Shown one piece after another: positions 8,316 to 21,204 of a DNA stretch of 21,204 nt. Each line of letters begins with the position of its first letter. Position 1 is the stretch's first letter. Under the pieces are notes generated by a model. The model had not been told where the DNA came from. It saw nothing but the letters and a program-made list of their open reading frames with translations, and made no database searches. The position numbers and the translations under genes were made by a program. This stretch comes from a virus, in IMG/VR virus record IMGVR_UViG_3300037264_000528, positions 1 to 21,204 of that record; one strand, given 5' to 3'.

Positions 8316-10301
8316 TTAGACCTTACTTGCTAGCAGAACACTAGCTAAATAATTGTCTAATTGATGAGCGGTAGCGATTTTATTAACCTCTAAGACTCTA
8401 ATGTTGTTAGTATCTTCGGGGTTAGTGCAATAATCATTTACTTTGGTCATCCATTCGCTCGGTTCTTCATTAGACATAATGAGTTCGACCACTCCTTGTG
8501 AGACTTCTTTTTGGAGTTTAGACATCCGTTTCACCTTATGAGTTTCTTTAAAATGAGCCATCACCGCGTTTTCTAATTGTTGAGCAACAAGCAAATTGTC
8601 AGAAACCTTTCTCAGACTAAATTGGGTTTCGGATGCGCTGGTACCAATGGGACTAAGTTTTTTGACGGTTTTTGGTCCCGTAGAACCTTCTGGTCTACCT
8701 GTTTCGTTAGGGTCTTTAGGCCCGCCAATTAATGGCGTGTATAAACCCTTATCCCGTTTTTTCATATAGTCTTTCTGTTCCTCATCAGCCAAAGTAGGAT
8801 CAGGTAAAACTCCTGTATGTAAGGCGCGATATCCCTGTTCAGGAGTGAGGATACCAATTTCCATAAGACGAGCATAAATTTTGTTCATGGTCGAGTTATC
8901 TTTCAGTTCAATAGCTTCAAAGGAAGGGGTAGGATAGTTTTTAAACTTTAAAGACTTGGCTACTCGGCGCATTTCAGGAAGAAGGAAGTTATTTAAAAAG
9001 GCTTGCTGTCCCTGTTCTAAACGCGAAATAAACAACTCAACTTTTTGTTGTTGATTGGCAAATTTATCACTACTAGCGAATACGTTGTTTAGACCGATAT
9101 TAATATCTTCGTTAACTGTCTCGTATTTTTTAGGATCGAGTAGTTCAGCAATTTTAGGAATAATGAACTCAGCTTTAGTAGTATAATCAGCAATTAACAC
9201 TCGCCCAACAGACTGATTGGCGAATAGTCTTCTCAAAGATTCAATATGACGAGGATTGATACCTCCTTTATCGGGTTCTGCGCCCGTAGTCACCAAAAGA
9301 ATAATCTGTTGCATGGTGCGCGAAATCGCCATGTCCATTTTGCGTAGTTCCGCTTTAAAGTTGATATCCTCCAAAACAGGATAGCCCATAGGTACTGCGA
9401 AGGGTTCGTAATCCTGCTTCTTATAGAATACCATGGAGACTTTAGTTGGATCAAGTGGAATATTGATGGTACGGCTACCTGTCTTAATTTGCTTTTGAAT
9501 TTCGGGCGGTAAATCTTTAAAGACCGCAATATCTTCTTCGCTTTTAGGAGTGCGGAGTTGTGCGATCTCAAAATCAGTTAGAATTTTAAAATAGATTCCA
9601 TAAGCAAAATTCAAAGTAGACATCATTTGAATATCGCTGGGATTTAAAATGATATACCGTGCGGGAATTCTCATTGGCTCGATGTGAAGCTCGTCTGGCG
9701 TAACCTTCAGACTGTTAGGCGAGAGATAAGGAGATTCCTTCATGTCTAAAGCGGCAAAAGCTTGGTTCATTTTCCTAACGTCGCCAGGTTGTGCGTCGGC
9801 ATCAAAACGGTAAATGAATACATTACCCGAACGATAATACTCACGAAAAAATTTATCTTGTAAATCCCACAAGTTTACCTTTTTAAACAGGGCTTCAAAG
9901 AAATCTCGCGATTGCTGACTCCCACCTTGTAATACCAATGGACTCACTGAAAACTCAGTCATTAAATCAATGATGTTTCTAAACAAAGCGAAGTTGTAAT
10001 AACATTTTTGACACAATACTACAGCATCACGAATATCAATAGAAGATTTACTGTTGCCATATGATGCGCTAGAATAACGGAAAGGGACTAGCCCATCTTC
10101 GATGTTAGAGAAACGATTCGTGCGCTGAATCGTACCCGCAATGTTGCGTCGAGTCAACGTTTGCGTAGGTTCCTCGGCGGCGGTAGCGACCATCATGGGT
10201 TCATATTCTGAGGCATTGGCGGCAGCTTTGGCAGCGGCTTTCTGTGCAAGATTTGAATCTTGGCCATTACTTGTTGATATTGTTAATTTCTTTCTTGCCA
10301 T
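8316..10301 (-). CDS. Portal protein
   Basis: This 661-residue protein is the head portal, the dodecameric ring through which DNA enters and leaves. The body shows features of phage portals. A helical segment with NLWDLQDKFFREYYRSGNVF (about 143-162) is followed by the strand IYRF. Then come R-YIILNPSDIQ, a long charged helix (LRKMDMAISRTMQQ) and the motif GLNNVF. A later pair of helices carries RLEQGQQAFLNNFLLPEMRR. The first 45 residues are Ala-rich and probably disordered. After about residue 545 a Gly/Pro/Thr linker leads to a helical C-terminal extension of some 100 residues that could contact terminase or internal proteins. A TAGGT ribosome-binding site lies about 8 bases before the ATG. 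It lies two genes downstream of the large terminase, with a fibre gene between them. The gene is full length. Confidence 0.9.
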   Translation of the reverse strand: MARKKLTISTSNGQDSNLAQKAAAKAAANASEYEPMMVATAAEEPTQTLTRRNIAGTIQRTNRFSNIEDGLVPFRYSSASYGNSKSSIDIRDAVVLCQKCYYNFALFRNIIDLMTEFSVSPLVLQGGSQQSRDFFEALFKKVNLWDLQDKFFREYYRSGNVFIYRFDADAQPGDVRKMNQAFAALDMKESPYLSPNSLKVTPDELHIEPMRIPARYIILNPSDIQMMSTLNFAYGIYFKILTDFEIAQLRTPKSEEDIAVFKDLPPEIQKQIKTGSRTINIPLDPTKVSMVFYKKQDYEPFAVPMGYPVLEDINFKAELRKMDMAISRTMQQIILLVTTGAEPDKGGINPRHIESLRRLFANQSVGRVLIADYTTKAEFIIPKIAELLDPKKYETVNEDINIGLNNVFASSDKFANQQQKVELFISRLEQGQQAFLNNFLLPEMRRVAKSLKFKNYPTPSFEAIELKDNSTMNKIYARLMEIGILTPEQGYRALHTGVLPDPTLADEEQKDYMKKRDKGLYTPLIGGPKDPNETGRPEGSTGPKTVKKLSPIGTSASETQFSLRKVSDNLLVAQQLENAVMAHFKETHKVKRMSKLQKEVSQGVVELIMSNEEPSEWMTKVNDYCTNPEDTNNIRVLEVNKIATAHQLDNYLASVLLASKV

Positions 10302-10311
10302 AAAGTACCTA

Positions 10312-12591
10312 TTATACGTAATTTAACGTGTATGTGCAGTAATATTGTGGAATAGCGGCCACATCCGCCCAGCGTACAAAAGTATAAATACTCGTTTCTG
10401 TAGGATTAGGCCCAGGAGCCGTTACATTATACGGGAATTTAATGGTTGTATCCCAATAGATTAAAGTATATTCGTCATTACGTTTTGATGAGTTATTTTT
10501 AATCTTTAACTGCACTGTCTGACCTGATGAAATATATGCTGGATTAAACGCAATAGTCGTAGCGTCGTCTACTAGAGATAAATCTAAAGCACTATATGAA
10601 CTACAAGCAATAGTATTAGTTGCTCCACCTACTAATCCTGATACAGTTGGACTGACTCTAAAAATAGGATATCCTGTATTTCCCGCGATACCCTGTGGAC
10701 CGATGGGACCTTGTGCGCCACTAGCACCACTAATACCTTGTGATCCTAAACCTCCCAAGTTTAAATTCATCAAACTATATTGATTCCAATAAGTATAACC
10801 ACCACTGGTACCTACGGGAGGATATGGTGAACCGTTAATAACCACTTTAATCCATCCCGCTGTAGAATCATAACCACTAACTTCGGCATAGAAGTATTTA
10901 GTGGAACCATAGTTGTTATCAGCAAATACAACTTTTTGCCAAGTAGAATAAGCCTTATTCTTTAAAACATCATGTTGAAACCAGATAGCATCTCCTGGAA
11001 CAAAACGCATTTCGTCACCTGTCTTGTATAACCAAGTGATAGAACCGCTATTCACCTTATTAAAAGATGGACTAATGCCAGAGGTAGCATTAATCTCGTT
11101 AGTAAAGAAGGATGAATAATATTTATCCGCAATGCCCTCGGGACCCGTTGGCCCTGTTGCGCCTGAACCAGCAGGTCCAGTTGCTCCTACTGTTCCAGCG
11201 GGACCAGTAGGCCCGCCCGCAGGCATGGTAATATATTCTGAGTTAGTACCATCAGAGAATTGAAACCTTATCTGAGTACCATCCGAAGGATTACGATAGA
11301 CTCCTGTTACGCTAACGCCAGGTGCCCCACCCGCTCCCAAAGGTCCAATTTCTCCTTGCGCACCATCTAGTCCAGGAGAACCTTGCGCACCTGTCGGACC
11401 TGTAGGACCAAAGTAACCAATAGCTAAACTCCCTAATACTAATCCTCCTAAATTAACTTCGGTACTACCATCGAATAGTGAGCCATCTAAAGCATAACGA
11501 GCAAAACCATACTTGTATCCTGTAGCTGCGCTATATTTAACATTAAAAGAGATAGAAGATTTATAGGGGTCTTCTGAAGTATTCCACATAACTTCACTAT
11601 CTTTAATACGAGTAGCTAACGTAGCAGAGGTAATCCCGTTAGACTCAGGATAGATAATACGACCCGTATACGTACCAGTAGAGTCAGCAGTTAATGACCA
11701 AACTGTGAAACGCATGTATCCCGAAGTACCGCTTTCGTCTTGAAAGAAATTGGTGTTATAGGTCGCAGCAGGAATACCATAAATTGCAGACATGGCAGGA
11801 GTAATAGTAATGCCCGTAGTCTGTAATCCGCTTTGTCCAATGGTATAACGCATACCTTTAATCAGCGTGATAGTCGGATTAGAAGTTACATATGGATCGA
11901 TGTTGTAAATAGTGACTTGAGGGGTAAGAGTAAGATTACTCTTAATCATCATACCTGTCAACTTATCACAATCAATTAAAATACCACCAGCGGTACCTTG
12001 TGGACCAGTAGCACCACTCGGTAGGAAAATGCCCGAACCTGTAGTCTTGTTAGAATACAATGGTAAAATATAAGATGCTCCGCTTGGAAGAAAACCCGTT
12101 AAGTTAATACCTGTTCCCGTGGCTCCACTAGGCAAAGGAATTACCTCACCACTTGTATTATTGGAATAGAGAAATCTTACACCGCCGCTTTGTCCTACCG
12201 CTCCTGTAATACCGATACCAGTTGCTCCTGTTGCTCCTGTAGTACCATAACCCGTTGGTCCAGTAGGTCCAATAATAGAAACTCCTTGACTGGTCGCAGC
12301 CAAAGTAAACTCGTTGACTCTAATGACCGCACCCAAACCTGAAGTATACGCAGTAAAGAAATTGGGTCCAAAAAAGATACCGCTACCAGAAGGAACTCGT
12401 AGATTATGAGCAAAGATATCTTTGAAAGGTAAACCTGATAAACCTAAACCAAAACGGCCCGATCCTGTAGGATAAATGTTTTGTCCACTAAAGGCTAGTC
12501 CAGAACTCTGTAAGATAGGGAACATCGCTTGTGCAATGTAGCCAGATATATCTGGTTGACTTAACTGGCGTAATCTTATGAGTGAGTCCAT
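10312..12591 (-). CDS. Collagen-like fibre protein
   Basis: This 759-residue protein alternates globular regions with Gly-X-Y tracts at about residues 108-136, 193-202, 395-425, 459-486 and 615-640, rich in GPTG, GATG and GPAG units. Such tracts form collagen-type triple helices in phage fibres. The N-terminal 100 residues contain SGQNIYPTGSG and PSGSGIFFG elements and may form the attachment or trimerisation head. A short module (LYSN, T-G, then LPSGATG) occurs twice at about 141-160 and 178-196. The C-terminal 120 residues form a separate domain that could be the tip. An AAGG site lies close to the ATG. It lies between large terminase and portal genes, an unusual place for a tail fibre, so a head- or neck-attached fibre is plausible. 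The collagen-like tracts are certain; its position in the virion is inferred. Confidence 0.9.
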   Translation of the reverse strand: MDSLIRLRQLSQPDISGYIAQAMFPILQSSGLAFSGQNIYPTGSGRFGLGLSGLPFKDIFAHNLRVPSGSGIFFGPNFFTAYTSGLGAVIRVNEFTLAATSQGVSIIGPTGPTGYGTTGATGATGIGITGAVGQSGGVRFLYSNNTSGEVIPLPSGATGTGINLTGFLPSGASYILPLYSNKTTGSGIFLPSGATGPQGTAGGILIDCDKLTGMMIKSNLTLTPQVTIYNIDPYVTSNPTITLIKGMRYTIGQSGLQTTGITITPAMSAIYGIPAATYNTNFFQDESGTSGYMRFTVWSLTADSTGTYTGRIIYPESNGITSATLATRIKDSEVMWNTSEDPYKSSISFNVKYSAATGYKYGFARYALDGSLFDGSTEVNLGGLVLGSLAIGYFGPTGPTGAQGSPGLDGAQGEIGPLGAGGAPGVSVTGVYRNPSDGTQIRFQFSDGTNSEYITMPAGGPTGPAGTVGATGPAGSGATGPTGPEGIADKYYSSFFTNEINATSGISPSFNKVNSGSITWLYKTGDEMRFVPGDAIWFQHDVLKNKAYSTWQKVVFADNNYGSTKYFYAEVSGYDSTAGWIKVVINGSPYPPVGTSGGYTYWNQYSLMNLNLGGLGSQGISGASGAQGPIGPQGIAGNTGYPIFRVSPTVSGLVGGATNTIACSSYSALDLSLVDDATTIAFNPAYISSGQTVQLKIKNNSSKRNDEYTLIYWDTTIKFPYNVTAPGPNPTETSIYTFVRWADVAAIPQYYCTYTLNYV

Positions 12592-16539: not shown

Positions 16540-17223
16540 CTAAATAATATCGATATCACCGTTATTCAAGCAGCGATGAGCTTTGGTAATAATACCCTTA
16601 CGAATGTTACGAATTTGTTTATATCCTGGGCGACGACCCCGCTCGTTAGAAATATAACCCAACTTCTTAGCCACAACATCTTCATCTTCCCCTAAAATGA
16701 ATAATCCCTCATAGACTTGCCATTCAATCGGTTTAAGGATTTCCTTCATTTTGGCGTGCATAGATTCGATGTGTCGAAATACATTAGAACCTTCATCGAA
16801 AATGTTACTGACCTCATTGACATGATTTTCCATGGAAACAGGCATTTTAATAAACGTGGCGGGCTGTTTACGTTTCTGCCAATTGGCATATAGGGGGCAA
16901 CCACTACATTGAGTAGTATAAATTTTACATCCCGTATTATCAACCGACGCATCGCATTTTAAACAGGGGCGTGCGTAGTTGGAATAGTTGTTACGAATGA
17001 GATTGCGAATTTGATTGGTGATGACCGAATTGAGCCAAGGTTGAATCGGTTTGCTGGCTTGATATTGTGACCATTTACGAAAGATGTGAATCCGAATAAT
17101 CTGCGAAACATCATCGAAGTCCATCCAATTTAAAGAAGTAAGATTCCATTTGTGTTTGCGTTTGGCAATCTCTGTATCAATAACATCAATATATTCTTCA
17201 AAAGAGGGGGCTTTATTTGTCAT
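16540..17223 (-). CDS. Sigma-factor-like protein with a zinc-binding insert
   Basis: This 227-residue protein resembles a minimal sigma-70-type factor. Residues 30-80 look like region 2, with DVSQIIRIHIFRKW, then PWLNSVITNQIRNLIRN, the helix that in this family binds core polymerase and the -10 element. Residues 155-220 resemble region 4: a helix-turn-helix with VAKKLGYISNERGRRPG and a basic recognition helix. Between them is a five-cysteine cluster (Cys87, Cys90, Cys99, Cys106, Cys109) in CxxC-x8-C-x6-CxxC spacing, a likely zinc site not found in standard sigma factors. It could serve late transcription as gp55 does in T4-type phages, driving the very operon it lies in. Its ATG overlaps the stop of the zinc-ribbon gene by 11 bases, so the two are coupled. 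Homology to sigma is by pattern, and another DNA-binding role is possible. Confidence 0.72.
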   Translation of the reverse strand: MTNKAPSFEEYIDVIDTEIAKRKHKWNLTSLNWMDFDDVSQIIRIHIFRKWSQYQASKPIQPWLNSVITNQIRNLIRNNYSNYARPCLKCDASVDNTGCKIYTTQCSGCPLYANWQKRKQPATFIKMPVSMENHVNEVSNIFDEGSNVFRHIESMHAKMKEILKPIEWQVYEGLFILGEDEDVVAKKLGYISNERGRRPGYKQIRNIRKGIITKAHRCLNNGDIDII

Positions 17224-19834: not shown

Positions 19835-20050
19835 ATGAATATGTATATCTCGGGAAATAAATCTAACATGGCTTCACGTTTACACCAACTCGGTACGGGC
19901 GCGAGCCAACTCGTTTCCTTCCGCACGGAAGGACGATCTTATTTAACGGGTACATATGATCGCTTACTCTCAGGTAAATGGGAGCGCGAGGCTCGCCAGC
20001 AACAGTTCCGCTTTAGTGGCGCGGCAGGATTGACTACTCAGCAATTCTAA
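19835..20050 (+). CDS. Small hypothetical protein (71 aa)
   Basis: The 71-residue product has a Gln/Arg/Ser-rich composition (SRLHQLGTGASQLVSFRTEG; EREARQQQFRFSG) without membrane segment, cysteines or known motif. It is net basic. It starts 46 bases from the divergent phoH start, directly beside the inverted repeat. The evidence that it is a gene is an intact reading frame in a position otherwise empty and sensible amino acid composition. Against it is the lack of a ribosome-binding site before the ATG at 19835. The alternative start at 19868 (MASRLHQ) has a GGGAA about 13 bases upstream. I do not recognise it. Confidence 0.5.
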   Translation: MNMYISGNKSNMASRLHQLGTGASQLVSFRTEGRSYLTGTYDRLLSGKWEREARQQQFRFSGAAGLTTQQF

Positions 20051-20232
20051 TATTTAAGTTTTAATATGTTTTTACTTCCCATTAAAAGGGGCCGTTCCGT
20101 TTTTTCACTTTGACATTTCCAGCGTGGTGAGGATTTGGGGTTTACTTTTGGTTTTCGTAAAAAAGGCGATAATGAACACAGCCACCTGGTCGCAAACGTG
20201 TTCGTGTGTGTCAAAATTTTTCTGAAAAGTGC
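20051..20232. other. Short non-coding gap, no clear feature
   Basis: About 180 bases between the small plus-strand gene and the GC-rich hairpin. It contains T-rich runs (for example 20099-20104) and weak short inverted repeats, but no convincing gene, tRNA, promoter or terminator for the plus-strand gene. A 79-codon minus-strand reading frame across it has an improbable composition and runs through the hairpin, so it is not called. Confidence 0.5.
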
Positions 20233-20259
20233 CCCTCCCCCGTGCCTAGCGGGGGAGGG
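20233..20259 (-). terminator. GC-rich hairpin terminator of the 163-codon gene
   Basis: A 10-bp nearly all-GC stem (20233-20242 with 20250-20259) and a seven-base loop lie 14 bases beyond the stop of the 163-codon gene. In the minus direction a short TTTT follows a few bases after the stem. The stem is very stable but the T-tract is poor, so it may act as an imperfect terminator or as an RNA 3' end stabiliser. Confidence 0.6.
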
Positions 20260-20272
20260 AGTTTGAGGTTTA

Positions 20273-20764
20273 CTATTCGCGCCCAACGGACAACACCGTT
20301 TGTGGCTTCACGTTGAACACCGTTGGTGCCTCGTCCCGTTCGCGAAATTCCGAAGCCAAACAAAGGGGGCGAACAAATGATTCGTCAACTTCGTTGCCGT
20401 CAACGAAGTAAACCGTACTGCGTACCATGTTGCGCAGAGTACCCGCCGCAAGGCGGCAGTACTCCTGCCCCTTGTGGTCAATAATCAATCCTTCACGCCC
20501 CTTGCGCCATTCGCCCCAAGGCAATGATTCAACTTCGCCACGTTCGCCCGCTTCAATGGCATTGCGCACGGTGGCAATGTTCGCGTAGTCCACACCGTAC
20601 CTCACGCCTACGCGTACCCGCTTTGACACACTCTGCGTGGTTGTTTTGAGTGTTTTGAGCGGGCGAAGCCATTCAACGTACACACTCGCGCCTCGATTAG
20701 CCACTGTACCCAAAGCGGAAAACACTTGCTCCGCGTTGCCGTTGCCGTTCAGTTCGATTCTCAT
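20273..20764 (-). CDS. Hypothetical protein from a GC-richer segment (163 aa)
   Basis: This 163-residue protein has a mixed alpha/beta pattern. The N-terminal third contains a strand VYVEWLRPLKTLKT and a Thr/Ser/Lys-rich link. The middle has RVRVGVRYGVDYANI followed by a helix with NAIEAGERGEVE and LPWGEW. The C-terminal part has strands around GLIIDHKGQEYCRL and VYFVDGNEV, then PLCLASEF. It has no signal peptide or membrane segment, and I assign no function. The coding sequence is visibly richer in G+C than the rest of the window, with many GCC, CGC and CGT codons. The start has a purine-rich AAGAAAG stretch, and tandem 10-bp repeats lie 17-46 bases upstream of the ATG. A stable hairpin follows the stop, so it is probably a separately controlled single-gene unit under the repeat-rich region upstream. 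Confidence 0.72.
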   Translation of the reverse strand: MRIELNGNGNAEQVFSALGTVANRGASVYVEWLRPLKTLKTTTQSVSKRVRVGVRYGVDYANIATVRNAIEAGERGEVESLPWGEWRKGREGLIIDHKGQEYCRLAAGTLRNMVRSTVYFVDGNEVDESFVRPLCLASEFRERDEAPTVFNVKPQTVLSVGRE

Positions 20765-20780
20765 TTTGTTTTTCTTTCTT

Positions 20781-20810
20781 GGTTTACCGTTGTTTACCGT
20801 GCTTTACTTT
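20781..20810. repeat. Three tandem 10-bp repeats before the 163-codon gene
   Basis: Units beginning at 20781, 20791 and 20801 read GGTTTACCGT, TGTTTACCGT and GCTTTACTTT. The first two share nine of ten bases; the third is degenerate. A 10-bp period places each copy on the same helix face, as in cooperative protein-binding sites. They lie just upstream of the minus-strand ATG at 20764. Confidence 0.65.
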
Positions 20811-20842
20811 CTCATGTACGCCAGGAAAGCGCAACACGAATA

Positions 20843-20865
20843 AGTACGGATAGACTATCCGTACT
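20843..20865. repeat. Perfect 11-bp palindrome with one-base centre
   Basis: The arm AGTACGGATAG (20843-20853) and its complement CTATCCGTACT (20855-20865) flank a single A. It is the most symmetrical member of the repeat family in this region, and its core GTACGGATAG recurs nearby in both orientations. There is no T-tract on either strand, so it is more likely a protein-binding site than a terminator. Confidence 0.85.
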
Positions 20866-20878
20866 AATACTTAAGTAA

Positions 20879-20929
20879 TAGGCGCACCTAACTTGTCCGT
20901 AGTAGTACGGATGCCAGGAATAGCGCCTA
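20879..20929. repeat. Nested inverted repeat (large stem-loop A)
   Basis: Outer arms TAGGCGC (20879-20885) and GCGCCTA (20923-20929) enclose inner arms TCCGTA (20896-20901) and TACGGA (20906-20911). In DNA this could extrude as a cruciform. In RNA it would form a branched leader hairpin upstream of the 163-codon gene. Nearby, GCCAGGAATAGCGC (20913-20926) has a close relative GCCAGGAAAGCGC at 20820-20832. Confidence 0.6.
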
Positions 20930-20936
20930 GCATGAT

Positions 20937-20960
20937 TCGTGCCAACACAAATCGTGCCAA
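20937..20960. repeat. Two direct copies of TCGTGCCAA
   Basis: Identical nine-base copies at 20937-20945 and 20952-20960 with a 15-base period. They lie between the two motif clusters and near the candidate minus-strand promoter, and may be part of the same control region. Confidence 0.55.
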
Positions 20961-20971
20961 GTTCAGTTTTT

Positions 20972-20999
20972 ACGATACCTTGCGGGGGCACGCTGTCAA
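20972..20999 (-). promoter_or_regulatory. Candidate promoter for the 163-codon gene
   Basis: On the minus strand a perfect consensus -35 hexamer TTGACA (20999-20994) is followed, after 16 bases, by TATCGT (20977-20972), which matches four of six -10 positions. Transcription would start near 20965 and give a leader of about 200 bases running through both palindromic elements and the tandem 10-bp repeats before the ATG at 20764. Confidence 0.4.
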
Positions 21000-21027
21000 G
21001 TATACTAAAAAACGCATAGCACGTCCC

Positions 21028-21096
21028 ATGCCAAGTCCTATCCGTACTAATACGTATGCGTAGTTGTACGGATACGCTATCCGTACTCTTTGGCAT
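21028..21096. repeat. Nested inverted repeat (element B) around three motif copies
   Basis: Outer arms ATGCCAA (21028-21034) and TTGGCAT (21090-21096) bracket three iteron-like motif copies: two in one orientation at 21038 and 21077, and one inverted at 21066. It mirrors the architecture of the nested repeat at 20843-20929, suggesting two related composite sites. Confidence 0.55.
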
Positions 21097-21111
21097 AGAC
21101 AAGTCACCATG

Positions 21112-21136
21112 TTTCATGTAGTCTTAAAACATGAAA
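21112..21136. repeat. 8-bp inverted repeat over the right-edge start codon
   Basis: TTTCATGT (21112-21119) and ACATGAAA (21129-21136) flank a nine-base spacer. The right arm includes the ATG at 21131 of the possible plus-strand gene. It could be an operator or an RNA hairpin that masks the start. Confidence 0.5.
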
Positions 21137-21204
21137 ATGAATCGTGATTGGAATCGAAAGGAAGAAAATTTGGCTCTAGCCATTGTGTTTTTTATGGCTG
21201 GTCT
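21131..21204 (+). CDS. Possible partial gene running off the right edge
   Basis: From the ATG at 21131 the frame is open to the window end (24 full codons). It begins with charged residues (MKMNRDWNRKEEN) and passes into a hydrophobic stretch (LALAIVFFMAG) that may start a membrane helix. There is no ribosome-binding site, and the start lies inside an inverted repeat; the ATG at 21137 is an alternative. Too short to assign, and the call depends on sequence beyond the window. Confidence 0.3.
   Translation, partial: MKMNRDWNRKEENLALAIVFFMAG

Follow-up and report, generated by a model that had tools for sequence, protein, structure and literature searches.

Candidate sigma-54-type promoter elements and lineage-specific dyads in a proposed divergent control region of a tailed phage

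Here, we describe a repeat-rich region in a fragment of phage DNA and favor, at about even confidence, its interpretation as a divergent control region of a tailed phage, in which promoter sites of the host sigma-54 type are flanked by lineage-specific dyads that bind a regulator. Both the repeats and the promoter-type elements are present, the repeats are confined within the window (the whole 21,204-base stretch analyzed, a 21.2-kb fragment) to the space that separates two divergently oriented reading frames, and in two relatives the leftward gene is likewise accompanied by elements of this promoter class. The initial annotation drew attention to the repeats as a candidate phage origin or multi-site operator but missed the −24/−12 elements at 20929–20945, 20944–20960 and 21018–21034 (minus strand). 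The sigma-54-type signature, which recurs in many phages, is more interesting content than the repeats themselves. The features of the region and its flanks are as follows.

20273–20764, minus strand: leftward gene for a 163-aa phage protein of unassigned function, downstream of the sigma-54-type elements, with homologues in viral contigs
20765–21130, no strand: divergent intergenic control region, from the start of gene 20273–20764 (minus) to the frame starting at 21131 (plus)
20783–20807, plus strand: tandem 10-bp repeat TTTACCGTNN, seen in the sequence
20843–20865, no strand: palindrome P1, AGTACGGATAG-A-CTATCCGTACT, with half-sites 20844–20852 and 20856–20864
20894–20913, no strand: imperfect dyad Q1, TGTCCGTAG-TA-GTACGGATG, repeat family D1
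20929–20945, minus strand: sigma-54-type element S2, TTGGCACGAATCATGCT, top score of the window, 18.8 bits (E. coli matrix)
20944–20960, minus strand: degenerate sigma-54-type element, TTGGCACGATTTGTGTT, without the −12 GC, 14.4 bits
20972–20999, minus strand: weak sigma-70-like match TTGACA-16-TATCGT, 10/12
21018–21034, minus strand: sigma-54-type element S1, TTGGCATGGGACGTGCT, 12.5 bits (E. coli matrix) and 20.1 bits (viral-array matrix)
21039–21047, plus strand: single half-site TATCCGTAC, inside the second copy of the 16-base direct repeat
21055–21074, no strand: imperfect dyad Q2, TATGCGTAG-TT-GTACGGATA, family D1, right half-site common with P2
21066–21086, no strand: dyad P2, GTACGGATA-CGC-TATCCGTAC, family D2, centre 222 bp from P1
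21112–21136, no strand: 8-bp inverted repeat TTTCATGT/ACATGAAA, flanking the start codon at 21131
21131–21204, plus strand: start of the divergent frame, cut by the contig end; 24 residues, weak match to phrog_30744 (E 0.038)

The repeats of the region are genuine and exceed chance expectation. Five exact copies of the 9-mer half-site TATCCGTAC and a sixth with one mismatch (20905–20913) all fall within 20765–21130, and an exact search across the whole 21,204-base record returned no exact copy outside it, bearing out the confinement that the initial annotation had asked about. The commonest 9-mer of the region occurs five times, compared with a maximum of four in any of 2,000 dinucleotide-preserving shuffles, and 11-bp arms such as those of the 23-bp palindrome, which are perfect around a single central base, were reached in only two of the 2,000. 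The 10-mer CTATCCGTAC or its complement is present in four exact copies (20855, 21038 and 21077 on the plus strand, 20844 on the minus strand), so that the earlier figure of at least six motif copies was too high, although the repetition it described is real. The perfect palindrome, the 16-base direct repeat CTATCCGTACTAATAC (20855–20870 and 21038–21053), the tandem 10-bp repeats and the 8-bp inverted repeat are all present as first described.

The half-sites are arranged as two composite elements. The first consists of P1 (20843–20865) followed by Q1 (20894–20913), and the second of the single half-site (21039–21047), Q2 (21055–21074) and P2 (21066–21086), with Q2 and P2 sharing a half-site. 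Both follow the order palindrome, spacer, half-site, each read from the opposite strand. P2 is a near-copy of the 23-bp palindrome, and the 222 bp between the centres of P1 and P2 equal 21.1 turns at 10.5 bp. The region holds several dyad copies (P1, Q1, Q2 and P2) plus a single half-site, as expected of a multi-site operator. As the half-sites are exact, the palindrome centres vary and some half-sites stand single, protein binding to these elements would suit them better than the formation of RNA hairpins.

The region itself is probably non-coding. Its sole long frame (20812–21117, minus strand, 101 aa) is composed of the repeats and has no Pfam match, and readings of the region as an Rfam family, a tRNA or a CRISPR gave nothing above threshold. 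The product of the leftward gene matched nothing in Pfam or PHROG; its predicted fold resembles only uncharacterised phage proteins (BFVD), and its predicted structure has no counterpart in the PDB. We considered this product as the dyad-binding protein and rejected it, since the model lacks a known DNA-binding fold and all of its BFVD matches are uncharacterised. No regulator gene was recognised beside the region within the window, where the contig stops at 21204. Elsewhere in the window, a GC-rich hairpin (CCCCTCCCCC...GGGGGAGGG, 20228–20263) between the convergent gene ends of 19835–20050 and 20273–20764 is probably a terminator, and gene 16540–17223, which matches sigma-70 region 2 (E 1e-5) and is kept across relatives, is likely to encode a phage sigma factor, separate from sigma-54.

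The sigma-54 −24/−12 consensus is TGGCAC-N5-7-TTGCT (PMC12316311). When the window was scored with a matrix built from 41 E. coli sigma-54 ChIP-seq sites and motifs (PMC4591121), its three best scores fell at 20929, 20944 and 21018, all on the minus strand and aimed at the leftward gene. Sites of at least 12 bits are in modest excess (4 compared with 1.4 in shuffles), and the strength of the result lies less in this count than in the clustering of the three top scores of 21.2 kb within 106 bp. A second matrix, trained on unrelated viral arrays, selected the same three window sites and no other above 7 bits. S1 and S2 keep the 10-bp GG/GC spacing in a TGGCAY-N6-TGCW context and score 12.5 and 18.8 bits (training median 16.2), with each departing from the TTGC box by one base. 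S2 and S1 point to the start of gene 20273–20764 from 165 and 254 bp away, respectively; relative to S2, P2 lies 131 bp upstream and P1 75 bp downstream, and the distance from P2 down to S1 is 42 bp. Sigma-70-like sites, by comparison, are near chance level (three in 1.5 kb, compared with 1.9 in shuffles).

Under the interpretation we favor, the leftward gene would be driven from one or two host-sigma-54-type promoters (20929–20945 and 21018–21034, minus strand). Sigma-54 polymerase forms a closed complex that remains silent until opened by an AAA+ activator, which usually binds 70–150 bp upstream (PMC3844500), and the polymerase would be parked at S1 and S2 in this form until such opening. 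P1 with Q1 and P2 with Q2 would be the sites of a dimeric regulator, downstream (P1) and upstream (P2) of S2, and the distances of P2 and P1 from S2 and S1 would suit enhancer sites or a looping operator, through which the dyads and the polymerase sites may act jointly. The activator would be supplied by the host or by phage DNA beyond the fragments.

Neither RpoN nor an activator was found in the 68 phage records searched. The only domain match among them, to PF00158 in one relative (G016), was rejected as an activator since by sequence it is a RuvB-like helicase. RpoN is present in one of the two MAGs that carry a related terminase. The occurrence of a phage contig in a MAG is, however, weak evidence of a host, and we discarded host assignment through these terminase matches as unreliable.

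The window belongs to a set of relatives that share a gene block of phoH, a sigma-like gene, an ERCC4-type nuclease, terminase and portal, several of which carry iterated TTGGCACG-N4-TTGCT, that is, the sigma-54 −24/−12 consensus. Allowing at most one mismatch, we counted 57 sites with this pattern in 21 related records, compared with 2 for the reversed pattern, and both window sites lie inside the region. The spacing is equally specific: in relatives not chosen by motif, TGGCAY is separated from TGCW by 6 bp in 38 cases and by each other distance in 0–5. In one relative (G001), the three best sites occupy the stretch adjoining the homologue of gene 20273–20764, with the best of them pointing away from it, and another (G020) has ten sites within 600 bp upstream of the homologue.

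By scanning for the family of gene 20273–20764 we recovered 48 viral loci, and clustered sigma-54-type sites lie near the family gene in only two, those sharing the window's gene block. We therefore rejected the promoter motif as a general companion of the family; as only the gene-block loci have clustered sites, the motif appears to follow the phage lineage, and perhaps the host, rather than the gene. The half-site TATCCGTAC is absent from all 48 loci, and the P1 palindrome, the dyads and their arrangement were not found in any relative examined in phage and IMG/VR searches, where the region and palindrome gave a single match (L113), about as expected by chance. What is kept beside the gene in the two whole-block relatives is the sigma-54-type promoter element, not the dyads. 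The initial annotation held that its reading would fail if the repeats were not conserved in close relatives with the same flanking genes, and at the sequence level they are not (0 of 48 loci). The relatives examined are distant, and the dyads may simply be lineage-specific.

The sigma-54-type element also occurs as tandem copies in several unrelated groups of phages, with 98 viral stretches carrying them where well under one is expected by chance (an estimate for about 5e10 bases at equal base frequencies). Across the 80 listed loci of the 98 (L131–L210) there are 468 sites, compared with 9 for the reversed control; as these loci were picked by motif, the independent evidence is their diversity rather than the site totals. 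By gene content they fall into several groups, T7-like and Astrithrvirus-like phages included. Their arrays comprise two to nine or more tandem copies, often in divergent spaces and with some inverted pairs, show spacing peaks at 26–28 and 43–47 bp, and tolerate the same variants as sigma-54, Y before TGGC and W after TGC. Unrelated phoH-bearing control loci showed no excess (4 matches compared with 2.3 in shuffles over 547 kb). Array orientation relative to flanking genes is weakly biased (68 to 56 by site, with 30 of 45 one-way clusters in agreement), with genes taken as simple open frames rather than curated calls and most records being fragments. Divergent spaces are enriched for arrays, and inverted pairs and convergent spaces also occur.

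Among the Astrithrvirus relatives scanned, a cultured Pectobacterium phage, DU_PP_III (L232), has one strong site near its right end (11169–11185, 16.6 bits), and the Salmonella phages Astrid and assan have no site of 13 bits or more, indicating that a host with rpoN does not guarantee site use. In an Astrithrvirus-like 10.4-kb contig (L153), sigma-54-type sites lie near the ends (13–29 and 10212–10418). Long palindromes accompany arrays in other phages in modest excess, partly composed of poly-C/poly-G; in one locus (L142, 535–561) a palindrome with 13-bp arms, TGCGAATGAGAATGATTCTCATTCGCA, looks Fur-box-like and adjoins a sigma-54-type array. In the open literature searched, with subscription papers outside its scope, we found no report of phages using sigma-54 promoter arrays; one study proposes a sigma-54-like phage protein, not promoters (PMC7693777).

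The region could instead be a plain multi-site phage operator, at which a repressor or activator on the TATCCGTAC dyads controls sigma-70-type promoters and the −24/−12 matches go unused. The presence of dyads and lone half-sites between divergent frames, the TTGACA-16-TATCGT match between the two composite elements, and a P1–P2 distance suitable for a loop are all consistent with this model. However, the sigma-70 match is near chance level, and a plain operator explains neither why the three best sigma-54 matrix matches fall in the region nor why two block relatives also carry sites of this class next to the leftward gene; we consider it unlikely, if by no means negligible. An RNA-level function, with the palindromes acting as leader hairpins (attenuator or terminator), is far less probable still. 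On the minus strand P1 has a terminator-like score, it would fall within the leader of the leftward gene, and both composite elements fold as RNA better than shuffles (z −2.6 to −3.9). Any palindrome folds well as RNA on either strand by construction, however, the T run after P1 is weak, single half-sites have no hairpin partner, and no Rfam match exceeded threshold. We give equally little credence to a replication origin with the repeats as iterons or as the origin for a phage initiator. The clustering of repeats and palindromes in non-coding DNA between divergent frames would fit, but the spacing of the repeats is irregular and they are mostly inverted, with no evenly spaced direct repeats; there is no GC-skew switch near the region, a check proposed initially, and no replication or initiator gene beside it in the window, which ends at 21204; and relatives with the same neighbouring gene lack the repeats. 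The origin half of the original proposal thus went unsupported, and its operator half fits the dyads and single half-sites confined to this divergent space.

A different use of the same elements would be a sigma-54 trap, in which −24/−12 elements bind the polymerase without producing transcripts and draw the enzyme off host genes. Sigma-54 polymerase does form silent closed complexes (PMC3844500), as many as nine tandem copies occur in other phages, with some inverted pairs, orientation is weakly tied to genes, and no phage activator is encoded. Yet the window has just two good sites, both aimed at one gene start. Two sites in a genome would sequester little polymerase, and with divergent spaces also enriched, a trap is quite improbable here. 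In the array-bearing phages it is a live rival given the only moderate orientation support, the inverted pairs and the convergent spaces.

The host-sigma-54 interpretation is supported by half-sites that are confined and above chance, by the three best E. coli-matrix scores and the agreement of the viral-array matrix, by the 57-to-2 site ratio, exact N6 spacing and G001 and G020 sites among relatives, and by tandem pairs in 98 viral stretches set against no excess in the phoH controls. Counting against it are the absence of the dyads and their arrangement from relatives, the one-base TTGC departure of S1 and S2 and the modest excess at 12 bits or more, the weak orientation bias with its inverted pairs, convergent spaces and outward-pointing best site in G001, and the lack of RpoN or an activator in the 68 phage records.

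Bacterial sigma-54 (RpoN) promoters, such as E. coli glnA, pspA and hypA, resemble these elements in the TGGCAY-N6-TGC motif with exact GG-N10-GC spacing, in window scores that fall inside the range seen for mapped E. coli sites, and in palindromic sites at enhancer distance. They differ in that the elements here are phage-borne candidates, sometimes in tandem arrays spaced 26–28 or 43–47 bp, and found in phage records without an activator or RpoN. The lambda OR/OL and P22 operators likewise have dyads repeated within a divergent intergenic space, but in the window no repressor gene is seen alongside, half-sites also occur singly, and the promoter elements are sigma-54-type rather than clearly sigma-70-type. 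Phage and plasmid iteron origins share the clustered short repeats in non-coding DNA, whereas the window has dyads instead of evenly spaced direct repeats, and neither initiator gene nor skew switch.

The usual account of phage transcription invokes sigma-70 promoters, phage polymerases or phage sigma factors. We tentatively propose, as a possibility that is more doubtful than our interpretation of the window, that many unrelated, mostly uncultured phages carry clustered −24/−12 elements and exploit host sigma-54 polymerase, either using a host stress or nitrogen activator to time their genes or trapping the enzyme in silent complexes, and that the window is a small example with lineage-specific dyads as enhancer or operator. 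Since sigma-54 promoters require an activator and ATP, phages that use them would place their genes under a host sensory signal, or else could tie up the host enzyme, and the motif statistics, which span several unrelated groups of phages, make sigma-54 use directly testable.

The relatives also showed features apart from the promoter elements. L104 (1871–3670 and 7830–10955) has phoH and the large terminase gene each interrupted by ~1 kb of inserted sequence, as do L105 and L112, a pattern that resembles splitting by introns or inteins. A 269-aa frame beside phoH in another relative (L110, 3537–4346) looks, by eye alone, like a LAGLIDADG homing endonuclease.
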